Part shown: positions 1 to 7,751 of the stretch, piece by piece
Numbering within the stretch: position 1 is the first letter of the stretch
How the letters are laid out: the number at the start of each line of letters is the position of its first letter
From: CBDUXZ01 sp965371325 [NCBI: uncultured bacterium]
GTDB lineage: Bacteria; JAUYMQ01
Length of the DNA: 7,751 nt
Direction of reading: 5' to 3'
Assembly: GCA_965371325.1 (NCBI GenBank)
Contig: CBDUXZ010000080.1
Location: 1 to 7,751, forward strand
Made by a program: the position numbers and the translations under genes
Notes under the pieces: model-generated
What the model saw: the letters and a program-made list of their open reading frames with translations, nothing else
Told to the model about the DNA's origin: nothing
Database searches by the model: none

Positions 1-87
1 CGGGAGCACGTCTCCGCGCACGACATCAACTGGTGGCGTGACGAGTTCCTCGGAGAGTTTCTGGCCTCCGCCCGGCAAGAGACGTAA
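1..87 (+). CDS. otsA: C-terminal end of probable trehalose-6-phosphate synthase (partial)
   Basis: Frame 1 is open from the left edge to a TAA at 85-87, giving 28 residues that end in SARQET. The stretch HDINWWRDEFLGEFL resembles the last helix of GT20 trehalose-6-phosphate synthases, where an HDV..W...FL pattern is usual. Only the tail is visible and no catalytic residue can be checked. The call therefore rests mainly on this pattern and on the trehalose-6-phosphate phosphatase 108 bases downstream on the same strand. OtsA makes trehalose-6-phosphate from UDP-glucose and glucose-6-phosphate in the cytoplasm. Another GT20 enzyme, such as a glucosylglycerol-phosphate synthase, is possible. Confidence 0.6.
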   Translation, partial: REHVSAHDINWWRDEFLGEFLASARQET

Positions 88-178
88 CAGCATCCAGCGC
101 TCCGATCCCTTCTCCCACTCCCCCCGTGGAAATGCCCATCGATGATATTCTGCATTCAGTATCCCCTCGCATCGCTCC

Positions 179-187
179 GGGAGGAGG
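179..187 (+). promoter_or_regulatory. Ribosome binding site of otsB
   Basis: GGGAGGAGG is a strong Shine-Dalgarno sequence ending 8 bases before the ATG at 196, and it fixes that start. The 108-base gap after otsA (88-195) otherwise shows only a modestly AT-richer patch at about 140-162. I could not identify a convincing promoter there. Confidence 0.75.
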
Positions 188-195
188 CGTAACCA

Positions 196-1035
196 ATGGT
201 AGCGCGTCGTGGCCGCGCGCCGGCCGATCTCACGAAGGCACGAAAGAGCGTCCAGGGACGCATCCGTGCGGCGAGTTCGCTTTTCGTGGCTGTCGATTAT
301 GACGGGACCCTCGTTCCGATCGTCGCCAGGCCCGAGATGGCGCGCCCCAGCGATGAGACGCTCGAGGTGATCGATTCTCTTTCGAAGACCCCGGGCGTCA
401 GAGTGGCCGTGGTGTCGGGTAGAAGTCTCGAGGTTCTTCGAAAGTTTCTGCCGCTCCCGAACGTGATTCTATCGGGCCTTCACGGGCTCGAGATCTGGCC
501 TCAGGTCGAAAGGGCGGCCACACGGACCGACGTTCATGCGGTGCGCGCCGACCTTGAAAACCTGCTTCTCTTGCTCGAAGAGAAGATTGGAAGCGGAAAG
601 CCGCCGCGCATCGAAGACAAGCGTCACGCCCTCGCGTTTCATTTCCGGGGAGAAAAACCCGGCATCGTCACCCGCCAGCGCACCGCGATCCGGGCGGCCT
701 TCGAGGAAATGGGCGAAGCCCCCACCGTCATGCTCGTCCCCGGAAAGCAGGTGCTCGAGGCGCGCGCGGTCAACGTCGACAAGGGGGCGTCGACGCGCGC
801 GGTCTGGAAGCAGCTTTCGCCGGGGTCGCTCCCGATCGCGATCGGTGATGACGTTACCGACGAGGATCTTTTCGAGGCCTTCGCCAAGGAAGGAATTACG
901 GTGCGCGTGGGGAAGAGCGCCCGGAAAACGGGCGCCCGGTACTATCTCCGGAACCCTGTGGAACTCGTTGCGTGGCTGAGGGATCTCGGGGCGCTCTGGC
1001 GAGAGGCGGGCGCGGGGGGCACGAAGGAAGGGTAG
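196..1035 (+). CDS. otsB: Trehalose-6-phosphate phosphatase OtsB
   Basis: This 279-residue cytoplasmic HAD-superfamily enzyme is predicted to remove phosphate from trehalose-6-phosphate, the second step of the OtsA-OtsB pathway. HAD motif I is DYDGT with nucleophile Asp34 and acid/base Asp36. Motif II is VVSGRS with Ser74. The motif III region is PGKQVLE with Lys184, followed by a KG pair at 196-197. Motif IV is GDDVTDED at 217-224 and supplies the Mg2+-binding aspartates. GLHGLE near residue 94 matches the cap-domain GxHGxE of the family. Length is typical (about 230-290). The ATG at 196 has a strong ribosome binding site. The gene follows a probable otsA on the same strand and converges with ccmD, leaving only 22 bases between the two stops. 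A role in osmotic or desiccation stress is inferred from the pathway. Confidence 0.93.
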   Translation: MVARRGRAPADLTKARKSVQGRIRAASSLFVAVDYDGTLVPIVARPEMARPSDETLEVIDSLSKTPGVRVAVVSGRSLEVLRKFLPLPNVILSGLHGLEIWPQVERAATRTDVHAVRADLENLLLLLEEKIGSGKPPRIEDKRHALAFHFRGEKPGIVTRQRTAIRAAFEEMGEAPTVMLVPGKQVLEARAVNVDKGASTRAVWKQLSPGSLPIAIGDDVTDEDLFEAFAKEGITVRVGKSARKTGARYYLRNPVELVAWLRDLGALWREAGAGGTKEG

Positions 1036-1057
1036 GGGAGGCAGCGCTTCAATGCCA

Positions 1058-1225
1058 TCAGGGAGCCGGGGGCCGTGCCTGTTGGCGCGATTTCAGCGTT
1101 TCCGCCAGAACCTTCAGCTCGTTGGCCACCTGGCGGCTTCTGCGGATGAGGCTTGCCGAATAGACGGTGACAAGCACGCCGACGAGCGCGTAGGCCCAGA
1201 TGAGGTACGACATATTTTCTTTCAT
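1058..1225 (-). CDS. ccmD: Heme exporter small subunit CcmD
   Basis: This is a 55-codon gene just downstream of ccmC. Residues 5-15 (MSYLIWAYALV) match the CcmD signature of a short start, an aromatic pair and then one membrane helix (about residues 6-26). A basic stretch, LIRRSRQ, and a charged amphipathic tail follow. CcmD helps release the holo-CcmE heme chaperone from the CcmABC complex in the inner membrane. The ATG at 1225 is chosen because AGGAAGGA lies upstream, with its AAGGA core 9 bases from the start. Met5 (1213) is a weaker alternative. It is the last gene of the minus-strand operon here. ccmE, often the next gene, does not follow, because otsB converges from the other side. Confidence 0.87.
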   Translation of the reverse strand: MKENMSYLIWAYALVGVLVTVYSASLIRRSRQVANELKVLAETLKSRQQARPPAP

Positions 1226-1234
1226 GGATTGAAT

Positions 1235-1242
1235 TCCTTCCT
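1235..1242 (-). promoter_or_regulatory. Ribosome binding site of ccmD
   Basis: On the minus strand AGGAAGGA precedes the ccmD ATG, and its AAGGA core is 9 bases away. It supports this short gene being real and translated from Met1. It directly abuts the small inverted repeat at 1243-1260. Confidence 0.6.
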
Positions 1243-1273
1243 GGGGTCAGGATTCACCCCGTTTTATTTCTTT
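1243..1273 (+). terminator. Possible intrinsic terminator for the otsAB transcript
   Basis: GGGGT (1243-1247) and ACCCC (1256-1260) can pair as a 5-bp stem around an 8-base loop, followed on the plus strand by a T-rich tail, GTTTTATTTCTTT. The orientation fits transcripts arriving from otsB. They would first run antisense through ccmD. The stem is short and the T tract interrupted, so this is tentative. On the minus strand no T tract follows, and the same hairpin would sit just upstream of the ccmD ribosome binding site. Confidence 0.33.
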
Positions 1274-2024
1274 AACTTCCCGATAGCACGCGGCGGCGCA
1301 TGAGCGTTGCGAGATCGCGCAGACGCTCGATCTCGGCCCGAAGGGCGATGAAGCTCACCGTCAGGAGCGTGAACGCGGCGAGCGTCAGGAAAAGCGTCTG
1401 GAGCATCTCCGGCGGAAGTTGCGGCCCCTCCGCGTTCATGACGACCGGAGCGGGATGCAGCGTGCGCCACCACCGCACCGACAGGTGCACCAGGGGGATG
1501 TCACAAAACCCCACGATGGCAAGCACCGCCGCAAAGCGCGCCCCCCGCTCCCCCTCGCCGGCAAAGGGCCGGAGGAGCAGATAGCCCAGAAAAATAAGCC
1601 ACAGGATCAACGTCGAGGTGAGCCGTGCGTCCCAGGTCCACCACGCGCCCCAGATCGGTTTTCCCCAGAAGGGACCCGACAGCAGCACCGCGGTGCAGAA
1701 AATAACCCCGACCTCCGCCCCGGCCAGCGCCAGCAGATCCCAGGCACGATCCCGCTTCCACAGGTAGAGAATGCTCGAAGCGAAGCAGATGAAGAAGGCG
1801 AGATAGCTCGACCAGGCGCTCGAGACGTGCATGTAAAAGATCTTCTGCACGACGCCCTGTGTCCTCTCGACGGGGGCATAAAGCGCAATCGCCATCATCG
1901 CGCCGAGAATCCCCACCCCCGCGAGGGGGAGCGTGACATTTCTGATACGCCTGAGAATTACGTCCATCCGATCCTGAAGCGCTGATCCCGCTTCCGCACT
2001 CACACCCGGCAATTGAGATTTCAA
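1272..2024 (-). CDS. ccmC: Heme-handling membrane protein CcmC
   Basis: A 250-residue polytopic inner-membrane protein of the heme-handling (WWD) family. It presents heme to CcmE at the periplasmic face. The tryptophan-rich motif WGAWWTWD is at residues 125-132. The two conserved heme-ligand histidines are His66 (in FYMHVSSAW) and His180 (in LVHLSVRWW). About six membrane helices are visible, and the length matches the family (220-250). The start is TTG at 2024, supported by GGAGGAG ending 7 bases upstream inside the ccmB stop region. Met20 is the alternative start if the TTG is not used. It begins 4 bases after the ccmB stop. A 46-base gap separates its TAA from ccmD. Histidines, WWD motif and neighbours agree, so the identity is secure. 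Confidence 0.96.
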   Translation of the reverse strand: MKSQLPGVSAEAGSALQDRMDVILRRIRNVTLPLAGVGILGAMMAIALYAPVERTQGVVQKIFYMHVSSAWSSYLAFFICFASSILYLWKRDRAWDLLALAGAEVGVIFCTAVLLSGPFWGKPIWGAWWTWDARLTSTLILWLIFLGYLLLRPFAGEGERGARFAAVLAIVGFCDIPLVHLSVRWWRTLHPAPVVMNAEGPQLPPEMLQTLFLTLAAFTLLTVSFIALRAEIERLRDLATLMRRRVLSGS

Positions 2025-2028
2025 AGGT

Positions 2029-2736
2029 CTACTCCTCCAGCACGTGTCCGAAAAGAAATGTTCCCGCGACCAGGAATAGCGCGTCGCAAAGAACGAGCAA
2101 TCCCACCCAGGGCAGCTCCGGCCCGAGTTCGTTCCCGGCGAGCGCGGCGGACGTGACGCGCACCGAGGAGATGAGCACCGGAATGCTGGCCGGAAGAAGA
2201 AGAAGGGGGAGCATTACCTCCCGAATTCGCGTTTGCGTTGCCATCGCCGCGAAGAGCGTCCCCGCGCTCACGAAACCCAGGCTCCCCAGGGTCACGGGGA
2301 GCAGCAGTTCGGGGAAGGCCCGGGCGAGCGGGAAGTTGAAAAGCAGCGCGAAGAGGGGAAGAATGACCGCCTCTGTAACGGTGATGAAAACGAGATTCGA
2401 GGCCACCTTGCCGAGAAAGATAGCCCCTGGATCTGCTGGCGACAGAAAGAGGGCGCCGATGCAGCCCCCCTCCTTCTCTGTTACGAACGTTCGGTTAAGA
2501 CCGAGCATCCCCGCAAACACAAACGCTACCCAGAGAAAGCCCGAGGCCATCTCCTCCACCGCCCGTGCGCCCGGCTCGAAAGAAAAGTTGAACGTCACCA
2601 GGACAAGCACCCCGAATACCACCGTCGCGGAGAACACCTCCCGCGTGCGCCACTCCAGGCGAAGGTCCTTCCGGAGGACGATCATCATGGCCGCTCCGAA
2701 AGATGCGCCCGCGCTCTGGACGCTGCCCGTGTTCAC
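2029..2736 (-). CDS. ccmB: Heme exporter membrane subunit CcmB
   Basis: This 235-residue protein is the ABC permease partner of CcmA in the CcmABCD complex, which releases heme-loaded CcmE. The family opening (residues 19-30, IVLRKDLRLEWR) leads into the first helix. The cytoplasmic loop TEKEGGCIGALFLSP..P..IFLGK is the typical CcmB loop expected to contact the ATPase. About six membrane helices follow, and the length is normal (about 220). The GTG start shares the 4 bases GTGA with the ccmA stop, and GGAGGGA lies just upstream, so ccmA and ccmB are probably translationally coupled. Met17 or Met18 would give a shorter alternative start. Confidence 0.95.
   Translation of the reverse strand: MNTGSVQSAGASFGAAMMIVLRKDLRLEWRTREVFSATVVFGVLVLVTFNFSFEPGARAVEEMASGFLWVAFVFAGMLGLNRTFVTEKEGGCIGALFLSPADPGAIFLGKVASNLVFITVTEAVILPLFALLFNFPLARAFPELLLPVTLGSLGFVSAGTLFAAMATQTRIREVMLPLLLLPASIPVLISSVRVTSAALAGNELGPELPWVGLLVLCDALFLVAGTFLFGHVLEE
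2032..2038 (-). promoter_or_regulatory. Ribosome binding site supporting the TTG start of ccmC
   Basis: GGAGGAG on the minus strand overlaps the last codons of ccmB and ends 7 bases before TTG 2024. It is the main reason to prefer the TTG over Met20. Ribosomes finishing ccmB would be positioned to reinitiate here. Confidence 0.6.
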
Positions 2737-3464
2737 GGGGTCCCTCCGATAAGCGAGGTGTACAGGTTCTTGAAGCCCTCAGTGTCGGTCACCCGCGCGG
2801 TCTCCTCGTGGGCGATGCGGCCTTTGATGAGCACCGCCACGCGGTCCGCGATGCGCAACCCAACCTCCAGCCGGTGCGTTGTTATGAGCAGCGTTCGTGC
2901 GCCGTCGTGAATCCCGGAGAGCAGATCCATGAGAATACCTATCGCACGGTCGTCGAGTCCCGTCGTCGGCTCGTCGAGAAGAAGCAGTTCGGGATCATGC
3001 AGGAGCGCGCGCGCGATGGAAAGGCGCTGCGTCATTCCGTGCGAAAACATCCGGGCGGGATCGTGCCTGCGCGGTAGAAGCTCCACGCGATCCAGAACCT
3101 CGCTGATGCGTTCCTCCAGGTGATCAACGCCATAAAGAGCGCCGAAGAAGCGAAGGTTCTCGTCGGCCGCGAGATCCGAGTAGAGTTGCGGCTTGTGGGA
3201 GACGAAGCCGATGCGTCGGCGAAGGCCGGGCGGATGCCGCACCGGAGACTTCCCCAGCACGCGCACCTCACCGCCCGAGGGGCGGGCCAGCCCGGCGAGG
3301 ATCTTCAGAAGGGTGGTCTTTCCCGCCCCGTTCGGACCGAGCAGGGCGACAAAGCTCCCCCGGGGGACCGACAAGCTTACGTCCCGCAGGGCGATCTGCG
3401 GCCCGAAGGATTTTGTCAGTCCCGACGCCCAGAGGGCCGGCTCTCCGGCTCCTGCTGCGCTCAC
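2733..3464 (-). CDS. ccmA: Heme exporter ATP-binding protein CcmA
   Basis: A 243-residue ABC ATPase that pairs with CcmB at the cytoplasmic face of the inner membrane. Walker A is GPNGAGKTT at 43-51. The signature region is FSHGMTQR at 140-147, so the first position is Phe and Ser-His-Gly replaces the usual Ser-x-Gly context. Walker B and the catalytic Glu are in LLLLDEP (160-166, Glu165), and the switch histidine is His197. The Q-loop position reads FVSHKPQLY, where His90 appears to replace the usual Gln; an SH pair at this place is, from memory, common in CcmA-like ATPases. GTG is the start and overlaps the upstream stop as GTGA, with GGGAGGGGGG before it. CcmA alone resembles many ABC ATPases; ccmB and ccmC directly downstream settle the name. 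Confidence 0.94.
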   Translation of the reverse strand: MSAAGAGEPALWASGLTKSFGPQIALRDVSLSVPRGSFVALLGPNGAGKTTLLKILAGLARPSGGEVRVLGKSPVRHPPGLRRRIGFVSHKPQLYSDLAADENLRFFGALYGVDHLEERISEVLDRVELLPRRHDPARMFSHGMTQRLSIARALLHDPELLLLDEPTTGLDDRAIGILMDLLSGIHDGARTLLITTHRLEVGLRIADRVAVLIKGRIAHEETARVTDTEGFKNLYTSLIGGTP

Positions 3465-4078
3465 GGGTCGCCCCCCTCCCCAAGCTTTGCCTTCGCGTCC
3501 GCCGCCTCGCTGCCATCGGGATCGAGCTTCAGGTAACGGGCGTAGTACACGCGCGCCCTTTTCATGTTTCCGCCCCGCTCTTCCAGACGCGCGAGATTGT
3601 AAGCGGCGGCGGGATGGGGCGTCCGGCCGGTGAGCGCGGCTTTGAATGAGGCGCGGGCCGTCGCCTCATCGCCCATTGCAAGCTGGGCGATTCCCAGATC
3701 AACAAGGATCGACAGGTTGGAAGAGTCGAGCGTGGCGGCCCTTCGATAGAGATCAACGGCCTTTGAAAACTGTTTCGCTCCGGAGGCATCGTGCGCGCGC
3801 GAGAGGAGCGACGCTGCGCTCTCCGCCTCTCCCACGGAGGGTTCATCAGGGGGGGAATGGGTGGCGGTCGGAAAGGCGAGGCCCAGCATGAGCCCGCCGA
3901 GAAGCCCCAGCCCCCAACTGACGAGAAGGGTGCGTGACCCCGGTTTCTTCACGGGGGGAGCTTCGAGTTTCGGCGGAGCCGTCTCGAGATCGATCGAAGC
4001 GCCGCAACTGCCGCAGAACCGGACGCCCATCGGCATCCCGGAACCGCACTTCTCGCAGACCACGCCAAAGGGGCTCAC
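3461..4078 (-). CDS. Zinc ribbon-TM-TPR protein, CcmI C-terminal-half-like
   Basis: The predicted 205-residue protein has three parts. An N-terminal zinc ribbon has Cys8, Cys11, Cys22 and Cys25 (CxxC-x10-CxxC). One membrane helix (about 50-69) follows a KKPGSR basic patch, which suggests the ribbon is cytoplasmic. A periplasmic region (about 85-200) then holds roughly three TPR-like helical pairs, including AVDLYRRAATLDSSN and ARVYYARYLKLDP. In CcmI the periplasmic TPR domain binds the apocytochrome C-terminus, and the position beside ccm genes suggests the same job here. The start is uncertain. GTG 4078 has an AAGGGGGGGG just upstream. The frame stays open further, with TTG 4144 and an ATG at 4240 inside the upstream gene as alternatives. 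A G8 tract precedes the start (see findings). Its last 4 bases overlap ccmA. Confidence 0.72.
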   Translation of the reverse strand: MSPFGVVCEKCGSGMPMGVRFCGSCGASIDLETAPPKLEAPPVKKPGSRTLLVSWGLGLLGGLMLGLAFPTATHSPPDEPSVGEAESAASLLSRAHDASGAKQFSKAVDLYRRAATLDSSNLSILVDLGIAQLAMGDEATARASFKAALTGRTPHPAAAYNLARLEERGGNMKRARVYYARYLKLDPDGSEAADAKAKLGEGGDP

Positions 4079-4140
4079 GCGCCCCCCCCTTCGGCCGGCC
4101 GTGGGGCGAACCGGGAATCGCTCATCGGCTCCCTTTTCAT
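4075..4140 (-). other. Possible 21-codon leader ORF overlapping the TPR gene start
   Basis: Starting at ATG 4140, a 21-codon frame beginning MKREPMSDSRF runs through a G8 tract and stops at TGA 4077-4075. That stop overlaps the GTG at 4078 as GTGA, the same arrangement seen at other junctions of this operon. It could be a translated leader that couples into the TPR gene. It could also be the true N-terminus of that gene: one extra G in the tract would join the two frames. A second ATG at 4125 has AAGGGAG just upstream. I cannot tell these apart from one sequence. Confidence 0.25.
4082..4089 (-). repeat. G8 homopolymer (C8 on plus strand)
   Basis: An uninterrupted run of eight C on the plus strand (G on the coding strand) lies at the very 5' end of the TPR gene, where the start is ambiguous. 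Runs of this length are prone to slippage in replication, transcription or sequencing, and a change of one base would alter the predicted N-terminus. Confidence 0.85.
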
Positions 4141-4175
4141 CCAAACCTGCACGCCGGAGGAGGGGCGGGACTTCG

Positions 4176-5132
4176 TCAATCGAACTGCCTTCCCCGGCGA
4201 ACGACCCATAGGAAACCCAGGGCGGTGGTGAACAGACCACAGAGCCCCCAGGTTATCTGGCGGCCCGAGACCCCCCTGGCTATCACGCCGCTAAAGGCAC
4301 GCGCCCTTAGCCTCGCGCCCTTGGCGATGGGACCGCCGGCCGAGACGACAAAAGAGCTCCCCTCGATGCTCACCGGTTTTCCCTTCAGGAGATCTGCGGA
4401 CTGTATGCGCAGCCCCGCGTTCCGGGGAACCGCGACGTTCACAGCCTTGATCTCGAAGGGAAAGCTTCTGTCCAGGGCGGTCCCCAACAGTCCCCCCGGA
4501 AGTCCGTAAGAGATCGTGACCTGGAGCGATCCGGGTACAATGGGCAGCGAAAGATGAAATCCCGACTCCGTCGGGTTGAAAAACCGGCTCTCCAGCCACG
4601 ACGGCGCCGAGAGATCGGTGTACCCCTCCGGAAGCGGTATGAACATCCCGTATCCCGAGGGGGAGGCGGGAGAGACCGCGCCGAGGTAGGTGCGGTCACC
4701 CGTGTTCTCGAAAATGATCACCTCGGTCACGCGAAGCCCCTCCGTCGGGCTCTGCAGGATGAGGTGATCGGCGCGAATGATGACGTCCTCGTCGGACGTC
4801 GTCGTCAGATATACCTGAATATCGGCGGTGGCCCGTGGTGATTCATCCGAGAGGGTGATATCGGTTCGCATATAGGGGACATCAAGGTAATTGGCGATGA
4901 CGAGATAGGGGCCGGGCGCGGCGTTGGCGAAACGAAAGCGACCCTCGGCGTCGGAGACCGTACTGCCTGCCTCCTCCTGGGTGCCGCGCCAGAGAAGAAG
5001 AACTTCGAGCCCTCCGACGGCCCGGCCGTTCGCCCCATCGGTCACCCTGCCGGCAATCTCGCCCGCGAGGGCAGGCGCGATACCGGGGGGGAAGAGCCAT
5101 GCAAGCATCAATGCAGCAGCGAGTCGTTTCAT
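4176..5132 (-). CDS. Secreted beta-sandwich protein with C-terminal membrane anchor, unknown role in ccm locus
   Basis: This 318-residue protein has an N-terminal signal peptide (residues 1-23, probable cut after APALA). A domain at about 24-110 resembles the carboxypeptidase regulatory-like (transthyretin/CnaB-type) fold, with the usual pattern GRVTDGANGRAVGG followed by SDAEGRFRFANAAPGPYLV. A further beta-rich region (about 111-285) is not recognised. It ends with one membrane helix (about 293-311) followed by WVVRRGRQFD. Most of the protein should therefore be periplasmic and anchored at its C-terminus. I see no catalytic motif and no heme-binding CxxCH. It starts at ATG 5132, overlapping the upstream stop as ATGA, so it is an integral part of the operon. 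By context it may act as an accessory or scaffold for heme ligation; that is inference. Confidence 0.78.
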   Translation of the reverse strand: MKRLAAALMLAWLFPPGIAPALAGEIAGRVTDGANGRAVGGLEVLLLWRGTQEEAGSTVSDAEGRFRFANAAPGPYLVIANYLDVPYMRTDITLSDESPRATADIQVYLTTTSDEDVIIRADHLILQSPTEGLRVTEVIIFENTGDRTYLGAVSPASPSGYGMFIPLPEGYTDLSAPSWLESRFFNPTESGFHLSLPIVPGSLQVTISYGLPGGLLGTALDRSFPFEIKAVNVAVPRNAGLRIQSADLLKGKPVSIEGSSFVVSAGGPIAKGARLRARAFSGVIARGVSGRQITWGLCGLFTTALGFLWVVRRGRQFD

Positions 5133-5584
5133 CCACCGGCCTTCTCTGCGGGAACCTCGCGGCCGCAGTGCGTGCAGAAGCGATGCCCCGGGACACTCTC
5201 CGCGTTACAGGCCGGGCAGATCACCCCGGCCGCTTCCTCCTGCTTCGCCTCTGGACGGTCCGCACCCGGTTCAGCGAAGGCTTCCCGCGAAGACGTACCC
5301 GCCTCGGGGCCGAACTGATCGATGGTTTTCAGCAGCGACATCGCGTGCCCGCGGTATCGCGCCATCAGGCGGCGGTAATCATCGTCGGATACCACGCCTG
5401 TCCCGTGGTCGAATTCAAGCTCACGTATGGCCAGGTAGACCCCCTCCTTCTCCCGCTCGAGCACCTCACGTCGGGAGTCGGGTACAGCCTGTGCAGCGGT
5501 CCGGTCGCTCCCGAAGACGGGACGAAGGAGATAGAATATCGCGGCGATGGCCAGGAGGCCTGCGAGAGCAAGGGGAATCATCAC
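5129..5584 (-). CDS. CcmI N-terminal-half-like membrane protein with zinc ribbon
   Basis: A 151-residue protein. Residues 3-20 form one membrane helix followed by positive charges (Arg21, Arg28), so the rest is probably cytoplasmic. Residues 37-90 are a charged helical region, including VYLAIRELEFDHGTGVVSDD and DYRRLMARY. This resembles the CcmI N-terminal segment, in which a coiled-coil 'RDQLAELE..GLSEEEY' pattern is typical. A linker leads to a C-terminal zinc ribbon with Cys123, Cys126, Cys137 and Cys140 (CxxC-x10-CxxC). CcmI with CcmF and CcmH forms the heme ligation complex. There is no TPR domain, unlike full-length CcmI; a TPR protein is encoded two genes downstream. The start is either GTG 5584 (4-base overlap with the ccmH stop) or ATG 5581 one codon later. 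Confidence 0.75.
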   Translation of the reverse strand: MMIPLALAGLLAIAAIFYLLRPVFGSDRTAAQAVPDSRREVLEREKEGVYLAIRELEFDHGTGVVSDDDYRRLMARYRGHAMSLLKTIDQFGPEAGTSSREAFAEPGADRPEAKQEEAAGVICPACNAESVPGHRFCTHCGREVPAEKAGG

Positions 5585-6156
5585 GATTCGAATCGCGAAA
5601 GTTCGTCCTCGAGCTTTTGCTCGTAGACGGAGGTTGCCTTCCCCTCGGGCTCATCTTCGGCCGGCTTCTCGGCCGGCGCTTCCCCGGCCGGTTTTCTTAC
5701 CATTCGCCGCGCCACCCATACAACGATCAAGGCGCCCAGAACCAGAACGCCGAAGGGGGCGAGCCAGGCAAGGCGATCAAGCCAGTGTGATGTTCCCGGG
5801 CTCGCGAGGACCATGCCGCCATAACGCTTGACCAGCGCTTCGAGGATTTCCGCCCTGCTCATACCCGCGCCGATCATGGCGTCGAGTTCCTTGCGCATGG
5901 AGCCCGAGAATCCGCATACGCAGTTCGCCAGGAGCTTTCCGCAGTTGTCCTCGCAGGGGCAATTGACGTTATTCTCGATATCTTTTCGCTGAACAGGGGC
6001 GGCCCCATCCGCCGTTTTCCCCGTGGCGCCGGCCGAAACTCCGTCCGCCGGATCGGCCACGGCGAGGGTCTCCGCCGCCGCGTCCGGGGCGAACTGGGCC
6101 GTTACCAGGAGAGTCAGGGCGATCGCAAACATCATGCGGGATGCCAAAGGGTTCAT
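5581..6156 (-). CDS. ccmH: Cytochrome c maturation protein CcmH, variant cysteine motif
   Basis: A 191-residue periplasmic protein anchored in the inner membrane. It has a signal sequence (residues 1-28), a CcmH-type three-helix domain and a C-terminal membrane helix (about 128-147), then a cytoplasmic Pro/Ala/Glu-rich tail. After the cysteines, SMRKELDAMIGAGMSRAEIL and VKRYGGMVLASP match the conserved CcmH region (LR..I..GKSD.EI...V.RYG..VL..P). CcmH is a thiol-disulfide protein that keeps the apocytochrome CxxCH cysteines reduced for CcmF. The usual LRCxxC is replaced by CPCEDNC and CVC (Cys66, 68, 72, 79, 81). The start is ATG 6156, 4 bases after the ccmF stop and directly before the signal peptide. 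A start at 6216 would overlap ccmF and add a non-hydrophobic extension. Confidence 0.88.
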   Translation of the reverse strand: MNPLASRMMFAIALTLLVTAQFAPDAAAETLAVADPADGVSAGATGKTADGAAPVQRKDIENNVNCPCEDNCGKLLANCVCGFSGSMRKELDAMIGAGMSRAEILEALVKRYGGMVLASPGTSHWLDRLAWLAPFGVLVLGALIVVWVARRMVRKPAGEAPAEKPAEDEPEGKATSVYEQKLEDELSRFES

Positions 6157-6160
6157 ACTC

Positions 6161-7751
6161 TCACACGTATTTTGCCAGAACCTGGCGGCGGTTTCCCGCC
6201 TCCGGCCACATGGCAATCACCGTCCCCAGACCGAAAATCAGGCCGCCGATCCAGATCCACTGGACGAGGGGATTCACATAGACCTTGAAGGTGATCGTGC
6301 CGTCCGCCTCGACCGATGCAATGGCCAGATAAAGATCCTCGCGCAGCGAGGTCCGGATGGCGACCTCCGTCGTCGGCTGCTGGCTGGAAATATAAAAGTT
6401 CTTCGCGGGGAACAGGTCGCCGACATATTCAGTACCCTCGTAAATCCTGAAGCTCGCTTTGGCCCACTCGTGGTTTGCATCACGGCCGCCCTGCACCCCG
6501 TCGTAGCGCAGTGTGTATCTCCCCACCTCCACCGTCTCGTTGGGTTTCAGCGTGGCTTCCCGCTCGGTATTGAAGGCCGTTCCGGTGATCCCCACGAAGA
6601 TTGAAACCATGCCGAGGTGGACCACGTACCCGCCATAGCGTCGCCGGTTCTTGCCGAACAGGCGGCCGAGCGCCCGCCAGGCGCTCTCTCCGAACTGCCG
6701 CCGCCGCGCGCGCGTTCCCCGCCAGAACTCCTGAACGATTCCCGCCACAACGAAGATCGAAAGTCCGAAGGAGATGATGGCGTACACGTGCGCAACGCCG
6801 AGAATCCAGAGCGTCAGTGATCCGGCGAGGCCCACGCCCACCGGCATCACGAACATCCGCCGCAGGTTCCTGGGAGAAGCGCGGCGCCAGGCGATAAGCG
6901 GCCCGATGCCGGTCAGCGCAAGGAGGAGCAGTCCGATGGGAACGTTCACCTGGTTGAACCAGGGAGGTCCCACCGAAACGCGCACGCCGCGAACCGCCTC
7001 GCTGAGAATCGGAAAGAGCGTTCCCCAGAGGACGGCGAAGCACGCCCCGAGCAGGATCAGATTGTTCAGAAGGAAGCTCGACTCGCGCGAGAGGTAGCTG
7101 TCAAAACTCGACTTGCTGCGGAGCTGATGGCGCCGCATCCAGAAGAGGGGGATAAGGGCGCCGATGATGATGAATATGAAGCTGAGAAAGAACGGGCCGA
7201 TGGGAGAGAGGGCGAAGGAGTGAACGCTGGAGACAACGCCGCTTCGCGTAATGAAGGTTCCCAAAATGGCGAGAATGAAGGTGAGACTCATCAGGAAATG
7301 GCTCCAGGCCTTCATGATGTCGCGCTTCTCCTGGATCATGACGGAATGGAGGTAGGCCGTCCCCGCGATCCAGGGCATGAGAGAGGCGTTCTCGACGGGA
7401 TCCCAGGCCCAGTATCCGCCCCAGCCCAGTTCCACATAGGCCCACCGTCCTCCCAGCAAGACCCCGAGCCCCAGGAACATCCAGGGAACGAGCATCCACC
7501 GGCGCGCGGCGCGAACCCAGGTGTCGTCCAGCTTTCCGGTCAAGAGGGCCGCCGTCGACAAGGCGAAGGGAACCGCGAGCCCCACATAGCCGAGGTAGAG
7601 ACAGGGCGGGTGGATCAACATGGCCGGATGCTGAAGAAGGGGGTTCAGCCCGCGCCCGTCCTTGGGAACGTTGAAGCTCGGCAGGATCTCGAAAGGATTG
7701 GCGATGAAGAGAATGAGCAGAACGAAGAAGAGCATGAGGGCGGAAAGAACC
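6161..7751 (-). CDS. ccmF: Heme lyase subunit CcmF (5' end outside window)
   Basis: This is the C-terminal part of a large WWD-family membrane protein that attaches heme to apocytochrome c with CcmH and CcmI. About 530 codons are visible, and the frame is still open at the right edge (upstream codons VLSA before the Met at 7735). Family members run to about 650 residues, so roughly the first 100 or more are missing and that Met is not the start. GLNPLLQHPAMLIHPPCLY matches the CcmF segment carrying a heme-ligand histidine. The WWD motif WGGYWAWDPVENASLMPW lies at about 7375-7428. ITRSGVVSSVHSF (about 7216-7254) and VVHLGMVSIFVGITGTAFN near 6570-6625 carry the other conserved histidines. Many membrane helices are present. 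It is the first visible gene of the operon and ends 4 bases before ccmH. Confidence 0.96.
   Translation of the reverse strand, partial: VLSALMLFFVLLILFIANPFEILPSFNVPKDGRGLNPLLQHPAMLIHPPCLYLGYVGLAVPFALSTAALLTGKLDDTWVRAARRWMLVPWMFLGLGVLLGGRWAYVELGWGGYWAWDPVENASLMPWIAGTAYLHSVMIQEKRDIMKAWSHFLMSLTFILAILGTFITRSGVVSSVHSFALSPIGPFFLSFIFIIIGALIPLFWMRRHQLRSKSSFDSYLSRESSFLLNNLILLGACFAVLWGTLFPILSEAVRGVRVSVGPPWFNQVNVPIGLLLLALTGIGPLIAWRRASPRNLRRMFVMPVGVGLAGSLTLWILGVAHVYAIISFGLSIFVVAGIVQEFWRGTRARRRQFGESAWRALGRLFGKNRRRYGGYVVHLGMVSIFVGITGTAFNTEREATLKPNETVEVGRYTLRYDGVQGGRDANHEWAKASFRIYEGTEYVGDLFPAKNFYISSQQPTTEVAIRTSLREDLYLAIASVEADGTITFKVYVNPLVQWIWIGGLIFGLGTVIAMWPEAGNRRQVLAKYV

Follow-up and report, generated by a model that had tools for sequence, protein, structure and literature searches.

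A putative CcmI-type membrane anchor with a predicted zinc ribbon and its candidate periplasmic partners in a cytochrome c maturation operon of an uncultured bacterium

The window analysed here, a stretch of 7,751 nucleotides from the uncultured bacterium CBDUXZ01 sp965371325 (contig CBDUXZ010000080.1, positions 1 to 7,751), carries a cytochrome c maturation (ccm) operon in which ccmH is followed by a gene for a small membrane protein of 151 amino acids (aa). Sequence comparison supports the view that this protein's family, as a family, consists of stand-alone N-terminal domains of CcmI, each made of a transmembrane (TM) helix and a helical hairpin; the window copy, hereafter the stub, additionally ends in a putative zinc ribbon. 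A second ribbon opens a 205-aa protein of the same operon, which continues with a TM and tetratricopeptide repeats (TPR). A first-pass annotation had joined the two proteins into a CcmI cut in two, with the break in the cytoplasmic loop and a matching ribbon on each side; this is an attractive picture for the window operon and is not a general pattern. Our reading, which we hold tentatively, is that a CcmI anchor tagged with a ribbon works with periplasmic partners that can be exchanged, the ribbon perhaps acting as a docking knob in the heme-lyase complex.

Two reviews describe CcmI as having two TM helices, a short cytoplasmic region and a periplasmic TPR part thought to bind apocytochrome c (PMC3884852, PMC3601427). 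The stub resembles the CcmI (CycH) of System I (TIGR03142) in its N-terminal TM, in a loop, predicted to be cytoplasmic, with a conserved hairpin, and in a gene placed beside ccmF and ccmH, the ccmH gene overlapping it by 4 bp and ccmF coming next. It differs in its C-terminal ribbon and in that the chain ends after this ribbon, with neither a second TM nor a periplasmic TPR domain, and it is therefore classed as a CcmI N-terminal-domain protein and not as a full CcmI. A scan with the window CcmF confirmed at least 591 relatives, and the best 80 loci among them were used; a profile built from 24 stubs, the window copy included as a seed, finds the stub domain in 65 of these, and the other 15 lack it in the DNA examined. 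The window stub matches this profile at E 1.7e-29, being itself one of its seeds. TIGR03142 matches 19 of 28 aligned stub domains (19 ribboned and 9 ribbonless, the matching ones not told apart by type) at E<=0.1, the best at 3.9e-8 and above cut-off, and the whole protein at locus L074 reaches 32 bits, above the cut-off of 29.3. An hhalign comparison of 36 ribboned stubs with the NC10 protein L077, of TM-loop-TM-TPR layout, gave an alignment over stub residues 3-94 at E 1.2e-16; TIGR03142 gives L077 itself 27.2 bits, slightly less than the same cut-off. A TIGR03142 search of 30 genomes gave matches in 23 at E<=0.1, one above cut-off, the best being the ribboned stubs at the L074, L048, L063 and L028 loci (3.2e-7 to 3.1e-5) together with L077; since 9 of 14 control genomes also match, two of them above cut-off, single weak matches carry little meaning. 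The AlphaFold model of the stub (mean pLDDT 82.2, pTM 0.46) contains one TM helix, a confident helical hairpin (pLDDT 95-98 in the 10-residue blocks from 41 to 90) and the ribbon.

Several results count against the CcmI assignment. The window stub gives only a weak TIGR03142 match (13.5 bits, E 0.065, against the cut-off of 29.3), L205 and L025, among the stubs nearest to it, give none at E<=0.05, the three natural fusions described below (L252, L255 and L258) fall short of E 0.05, and no similarity was found between E. coli CcmH and the stub profile. A PDB sequence search with the stub found no CcmI-type relative (best E 0.022), and a comparison of a ribboned stub with other CcmI sequences from plasmids gave no match, L077 giving generic TPR-type matches there. 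The first-pass reading of the 151-aa protein as the first TM and cytoplasmic part of CcmI is thus borne out for the family, through the 19 of 28 TIGR03142 matches and the L077 alignment, and not for the window copy by itself, which stays below cut-off. At E<=1e-4 stub matches occur in 119 of 150 genomes of the Gemmatimonadota group, 42 of 82 of a Calditrichota-type group and 103 of 201 Chloroflexota (the phyla of genomes G028, G005 and G015, which hold loci L010, L016 and L048; the spirochaete group below is the phylum of G010, with L028), some of the weaker matches being domain copies borne by beta-sandwich proteins.

Both CxxC-x10-CxxC ribbons reported by the first-pass annotation are present in this tight operon, at the C-terminus of the stub and the N-terminus of the TPR protein. 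Each protein contains exactly four cysteines, all within the motif: CPACNAESVPGHRFCTHC at residues 123-140 of the stub and CEKCGSGMPMGVRFCGSC at residues 8-25 of the 205-aa protein. Composition-preserving shuffles yield such a motif in 9 (stub) and 6 (TPR protein) of 200,000. The ribbons share their spacing with Zn_Ribbon_1 and DZR (PF13240, PF12773), and differ in being attached to Ccm-operon proteins and in scoring below the curated cut-offs (Zn_Ribbon_1: 21.4 bits for the stub and 24.6 for the TPR protein, cut-off 25). Among ribboned stubs the Pfam ribbon scan took in the window copy and the spirochaete-group fusions; 7 of 10 scanned relatives with an N-terminal ribbon exceed the Zn_Ribbon_1 cut-off. 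The four cysteines are invariant in 36 of 36 aligned stubs, all picked for having a ribbon, and the top Foldseek match of the stub ribbon is an NZF zinc finger (rmsd 0.7 across 26 columns, prob 0.98), at an E-value of 0.59 that is not significant. The ribbon cysteines probably bind zinc. As the first-pass annotation had held, the lysine and arginine (K/R) pattern of the window proteins predicts both ribbons on the cytoplasmic side. In 32 of 36 stubs TM1 has more K/R residues behind it than ahead of it, a weak indication as few residues precede TM1; in 10 of 15 N-ribbon proteins, the window's included (4 versus 0), the larger count lies ahead of the TM, which holds for 0 of 4 from the Gemmatimonadota.

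These features suggest how the operon might work. The 151-aa protein would be a shortened CcmI that keeps the membrane anchor and the helical hairpin on the cytoplasmic side and gains a zinc ribbon, and its most likely place is in the heme-lyase complex, next to CcmF and CcmH. With one zinc ion holding it together, the ribbon would serve as a small docking knob in the cytoplasm, recruiting or orienting further single-span subunits that deal with apocytochrome through their periplasmic domains. In the window the partners would be the adjoining beta-sandwich protein and the ribbon-TM-TPR protein, and the latter may supply CcmI's missing outer part, bringing apocytochrome c to CcmF in the way proposed for the TPR of CcmI; the role of CcmI would thereby be split over two or three separate proteins. 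Complex membership, docking and apocytochrome binding are here what we infer. It is also quite possible that the stub is a real CcmI-type subunit whose ribbon is a mere structural end cap or stabiliser, that the ribbon of the TPR protein is an unrelated instance of a design with a cytoplasmic ribbon ahead of a TM, and that the two never meet.

The distribution of the stub ribbon bears on this second explanation. The C-terminal ribbon is common in the stub family and not universal: 27 of the 65 stubs of the first sample carry one and 38 do not, among them 11 from Neobacillus/Bacillus relatives. Ribboned stubs occur in 20 of 20 Gemmatimonadota-group and 17 of 20 Calditrichota-type regions within a set of 40 larger regions, which were chosen by hand where the contig left enough space, going through the match lists from the top (20 of the 119 and 20 of the 42 matching genomes). 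For the best 30 of the 103 matching Chloroflexota genomes the ribbon is present in 18 and absent in 11, the remaining locus (L225) having undetermined bases in the stub gene and ribbons in the next frame. The phylum of G021 has it at 6 of 17 stub loci, the 99-aa stub L216 being counted as without; L217 and L218 match via the beta-sandwich protein. On the CcmF tree, which has long branches and an unsure placement of the window and omits L059 (a stub inside a 1219-aa frame), the ribbon trait needs 12-13 changes on the best tree, 5 of them forced by well supported branches, against ~21-24 with shuffled labels. Such gains and losses favour ribbons that never meet, as do a varying count of ribbons (1, 2 or 3) and a linker of varying length.

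The neighbours of ccmF point the other way. Across the 80 loci (1.285 Mb), 8 open reading frames (ORFs) on the ccm strand, at 0.8-4.0 kb upstream of ccmF, encode an N-terminal ribbon and then a TM (L008, L016, L017, L025, L028, L034, L070 and L078); one more, at L077, lies at a distance of 9.3 kb on the other strand. The window's TPR protein is an additional example of such a protein near ccm genes. Such proteins accompany 7 of 27 ribboned-stub loci and 0 of 38 ribbonless ones (Fisher p 0.0013, kinship ignored; L078, with no stub on its short contig, was dropped and loci with little upstream DNA were retained). This association argues against unconnected ribbons, as does the presence of the tag on two distinct ccm-linked periplasmic domains, one TPR-fold and one CcmH-like. 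For the CcmH-like kind, Pfam CcmH gives E-values of 0.001 (L008) and 0.0018 (L016), both short of its cut-off; L028 is placed there by alignment, and a CcmH profile made here does the same for L151. L034, a ribbon-ribbon-TM protein of the Gemmatimonadota, has a TPR-type fold by AlphaFold (mean pLDDT 74.8) and Foldseek, where the top titles are TPR proteins (best E 0.0048, none <0.001), with no TPR found by Pfam; L070, L078 and L143 are 50-54% identical to it, and the periplasmic parts of L017 and L025 have no assigned domain type. A Pfam TPR scan of 77 proteins (68 of 100 candidates, 8 hand-added N-ribbon or TPR proteins and the window's) gave matches at E<=0.001 in just two, the window's and one more.

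At the level of whole genomes the stub and the ribbon-TM-TPR relatives tend to occur together in two groups, mostly unlinked. Profile A3, of the L034-type (double-ribbon-TM-TPR-fold) protein, finds relatives at E<=1e-6 in 140 of the 150 Gemmatimonadota-group genomes, the stub being present in 119 and both in 117; 8 of the 10 genomes without an A3 relative also lack the stub (p 4.9e-5, kinship ignored), these absentees maybe representing one lineage, and many A3 matches start at model position 25-30, leaving the first ribbon uncovered. In at least 9 of the 117 genomes the A3 relative lies 2-3.3 kb upstream of the stub on the same strand; six of these nine matches cover both ribbons, two (G347, G359) start at 28-30 and one (G332) is cut by a contig end. 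Subtracting the profile-seed loci (G275, G030 and, judged by its coordinates, G357) leaves linkage in 6 of 114 genomes, for a rough chance expectation of 0.34, which speaks against ribbons that never meet; that the A3 relatives, which have no assigned function, are so widespread and so seldom found near the stub speaks for that view. In the Calditrichota-type group 21 of 82 genomes have a ribbon-TM-TPR match that begins within the ribbon (E<=2.7e-52; the one after these, at E 5.4e-25, is TPR only), and the stub is present in 20 of these 21 versus 22 of the 61 others (p 1.5e-6, kinship ignored). A ribbon-CcmH-like profile, A4, matches 15 genomes of the same group (E<1e-27), with the ribbon motif in 13 of the 15 proteins and the stub in 13 of the genomes versus 29 of the 67 others (p 0.0034, kinship ignored). 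An A4 protein lies about 6 kb or less from the stub in five genomes, three of which (G005, G002, G455) are A4 seeds, the remaining two (G446, G447) being the two without a ribbon. Because part of the linkage comes from profile-seed loci and two linked CcmH-like proteins are ribbonless, we give docking, and the wider docking scheme discussed below, less weight and the explanation without contact more.

Further results weigh against docking. Except in G451, where they are 214 kb apart, the ribbon-TPR protein and the stub share a contig in none of the 20 Calditrichota-type genomes that have both, and no ccm gene was seen within 1.5 kb of any of five such ribbon-TPR genes inspected. No ribbon-TM-TPR protein was detected in the 201 Chloroflexota genomes, where 12 candidates per genome were scored with a mostly Calditrichota-type profile and the Gemmatimonadota-type profile A3 was not used; 7 of the genomes match the former profile at E<=1e-19, with the earliest start at position 47 of 247, outside the ribbon. 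From the 40 further regions, of which 37 have a ribboned stub, only two more N-ribbon TM proteins emerged, L143 and L151. On the CcmF tree the association of stub ribbon and N-ribbon partner gives sign-test p values of 0.25-1, with no pair in the opposite direction and too few independent pairs, and all of the 2x2 tables above take no account of kinship. Both the Chloroflexota and the 40 regions are what would be expected if the ribbons never met, and the Chloroflexota also speak against a matching ribbon on both sides being the rule, 18 of 30 stub loci there being ribboned. The co-occurrence of halves for which the first-pass annotation had called is found in two groups, mostly without linkage, and was not detected in the Chloroflexota. 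In the phylum of G008 the mostly Calditrichota-type ribbon-TM-TPR profile matches 126 of 395 genomes (6 candidates scored per genome, earliest start 21 of 247), and 15 loci fetched from it (L268-L282) have no ribbon on the matched protein and no ccm gene within 1.5 kb. Separately, the ribbon-TM-TPR genes in L187, L188, L189, L192 and L200 share a recurring non-ccm neighbourhood, with genes that we take, from the translations, to be plsY, a HEAT/transglutaminase-like protein and a 2Fe-2S ferredoxin, each of them found at some of the five loci.

The partner that is joined to the stub in nature is the beta-sandwich protein, the window's next gene, and not the TPR protein. Three spirochaete-group genomes encode a single chain of the order TM1-hairpin-ribbon-TM2-beta domain-TM3, with lengths of 551 aa (L252) and 453 aa (L255 and L258). 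The stub profile covers the first 90-104 residues of L252, L255 and L258 (E 2.7e-12, 3.7e-10 and 6.6e-8, respectively) and the beta-sandwich profile matches after the ribbon (E 6.6e-15, 3.1e-27 and 5.9e-26); Pfam finds no domain past the ribbon in these chains, and their ribbons stay under its cut-offs. L159 is a ribbonless stub fused to a beta-sandwich-type protein (E 1.5e-18 and 2.7e-50). No stub-ribbon-TM-TPR fusion was found among the loci annotated. The break that the first-pass annotation placed between TM1 and TM2 does coincide with a ribbon in the three fusions, while the domain joined there is a beta-sandwich and not a TPR. Two other arrangements were seen. The beta-sandwich proteins at L028 (12705-13853), L039 (12482-13477) and L004 (3723-4928) end in a TM and a second CcmI-type hairpin (E 2.5e-10, 2.5e-8 and 3.3e-7), and in the Chloroflexota chains L236, L237, L239, L243 and L248, which adjoin ccmF/ccmH and carry no ribbon, the stub domain is followed by a second TM and an Asp-box type domain, not TPR. 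In the three of these five that were scanned BNR scores above cut-off and YCF48- and sortilin-type models below. The periplasmic head of the NC10 protein L077 is a TPR.

The docking idea may be extended to a shared code in an uncharacterised branch of System I, with the stub as receptor ribbon and single-span proteins bearing matching ribbons; their periplasmic domains, TPR, CcmH-like and perhaps FtrD-like, would then be exchangeable apocytochrome-handling heads fitted from the cytoplasmic side. We regard this wider scheme as unlikely. Clusters of N-ribbon-TM proteins with CcmH-like domains occur in L178, L179 and L103 (in tandem by eye in L178 and L179), and that of L179 includes an FtrD-like domain (PF10080, 81 bits), a ccmF-like frame lying within the fetched DNA. 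Improbable, in our judgement, is a cytoplasmic sensor in which zinc, heme or thiol-redox state acts on the ribbons to tune heme ligation outside. Cysteine ligands on the predicted cytoplasmic side would suit it, and in a Shewanella BioID study a protein that traffics heme in the cytosol labelled CcmA, C, D, F and I, so that heme traffic does reach the cytoplasmic face of the complex (PMC10470608); neither a regulatory partner nor an extra ligand is seen, however, and the motif resembles a plain structural zinc site.

The 205-aa protein is a TM protein with TPR, as first annotated: it has a single hydrophobic segment (residues 51-69), its TPR_19 score of 42.7 bits exceeds the cut-off of 25, and its gene overlaps ccmA by 4 bp. 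It resembles the C-terminal half of E. coli CcmH (PF23914) and NrfG, which is named in one review (PMC3601427), in being a TM-anchored TPR protein of a heme-lyase cluster, and differs in its N-terminal ribbon, of which E. coli CcmH shows no match at E<=1e-4, and in giving no PF23914 match up to E=1, where the E. coli CcmH control gives E 1.2e-60 and 204 bits. On this comparison it cannot be assigned to CcmI. Five Calditrichota-type ribbon-TPR proteins score 24-39 bits with PF23914 (cut-off 42), and the ribbonless TM-TPR proteins L028:3985 and L270 score 38 bits; L077 gives no match at E<=1e-4, so PF23914 is not a sharp test in these phyla. Identity between the window protein and the remaining rows of A5 is 18-22%, and a PDB sequence search with its TPR half returned TPR-type chains only. 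A true split, in which the TPR gene is what remains of the C-terminal half of a once full-length CcmI and the ribbons of both proteins stand in for the lost covalent link, is highly improbable: operon position, TM plus TPR, the N-in charge pattern and the existence of a TM-loop-TM-TPR protein in L077 would suit such a split, but PF23914 is unmatched, the best match to L077 is a weak one over the TM-plus-TPR stretch (26% identity, E 0.001), no fusion of stub, ribbon, TM and TPR was found among the annotated loci, and, as the stub stands alone in many groups, a recent split is not needed.

The genes of the operon run on the minus strand in the order ccmF (partial), ccmH, stub, beta-sandwich gene, ribbon-TPR gene, ccmA, ccmB, ccmC and a ccmD-like ORF (Table 1). 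By coordinates, 4-bp overlaps occur at the ccmH/stub, stub/beta-sandwich, ribbon-TPR/ccmA and ccmA/ccmB junctions; 97 bp separate the end of the beta-sandwich gene (4176) from the start of the ribbon-TPR gene (4078), whose reading frame stays open up to a GTG at 4240. The partial ccmF scores 429.7 bits with TIGR00353, under the cut-off of 569. The beta-sandwich protein has a hydrophobic N-terminus and a C-terminal TM, right after which the chain stops. A trehalose-phosphatase gene (196-1035, plus strand) adjoins the operon.

Table 1. Genes and protein features of the ccm operon in the window
Feature	Position	Strand	Basis
ccmF (heme lyase core)	6161..7750	-	5′ end beyond window; CcmF_C E 9.8e-74
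ccmH (thiol-oxidoreductase type, CcmH/NrfF)	5581..6156	-	PF03918 E 4.9e-16, 58.7 bits
Stub, 151 aa: putative stand-alone CcmI N-terminal domain with C-terminal zinc ribbon	5129..5584	-	
Stub TM1, residues 2-25	5510..5581	-	hydropathy (~2-20) and AlphaFold helix 3-25
Stub helical hairpin, predicted cytoplasmic, residues 38-90	5315..5473	-	AlphaFold helices 38-62 and 67-90
Stub C-terminal putative zinc ribbon, residues 123-140	5165..5218	-	sequence; conserved Cys; Foldseek
CarboxypepD_reg-type beta-sandwich protein	4176..5132	-	PF13620 E 9.5e-12, 45.5 bits
Ribbon-TM-TPR protein, 205 aa from GTG	3461..4078	-	TPR_19 42.7 bits, Zn_Ribbon_1 24.6 bits
N-terminal putative zinc ribbon of TPR protein, residues 8-25	4004..4057	-	sequence
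TM of TPR protein, residues 51-69, predicted N-in	3872..3928	-	hydropathy; K/R 4 before, 0 after
TPR repeats, residues ~90-199, probably periplasmic	3482..3811	-	Pfam TPR matches
ccmA	2733..3464	-	TIGR01189 128.8 bits, slightly under cut-off 131.6; position
ccmB	2029..2736	-	PF03379 E 8.9e-34
ccmC	1272..2024	-	TIGR01191 159.4 bits, below cut-off 186; Pfam Cytochrom_C_asm 119.5 bits, above cut-off
ccmD-like 55-aa ORF, one hydrophobic stretch	1058..1225	-	translation and position only

System I*, the name given in a review to the type whose CcmE has a Cys ligand (PMC3601427), offers a further comparison. The ccmE-like proteins upstream of ccmF in relatives (L034, L040, L048 and others) end C-x-[ST]-[KR]-[YF], the cysteine type of System I*; the window differs in having ccmH, and it includes no ccmE. 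In the library of openly licensed PMC papers searched we found none that links CcmI, ccmF or cytochrome c maturation to a zinc ribbon, a paper on ribosomal protein L36 (PMC3377617) being off topic, and none that treats CcmI together with a Gemmatimonad.

To our knowledge, the function of the cytoplasmic part of CcmI is little understood. Here this part is kept alone in several phyla, often with a likely metal site added. The periplasmic part has a gene of its own in some cases, gives way to a beta-sandwich or Asp-box repeat domain in others, and elsewhere was not found in the vicinity. Because the anchor is kept while the periplasmic part varies, our results suggest that the anchor, and not the TPR, is the conserved core of CcmI. 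They fit a constant piece of CcmI anchor and hairpin, a ribbon as its frequent extension, and a periplasmic head that is fused, separate or exchanged. The CcmI anchor likely exists as a separate small protein in many little-studied bacteria, often bearing a tag that probably binds zinc and faces the cytoplasm, and the stand-alone stubs are small pieces with which the role of the cytoplasmic part of CcmI may be tested.

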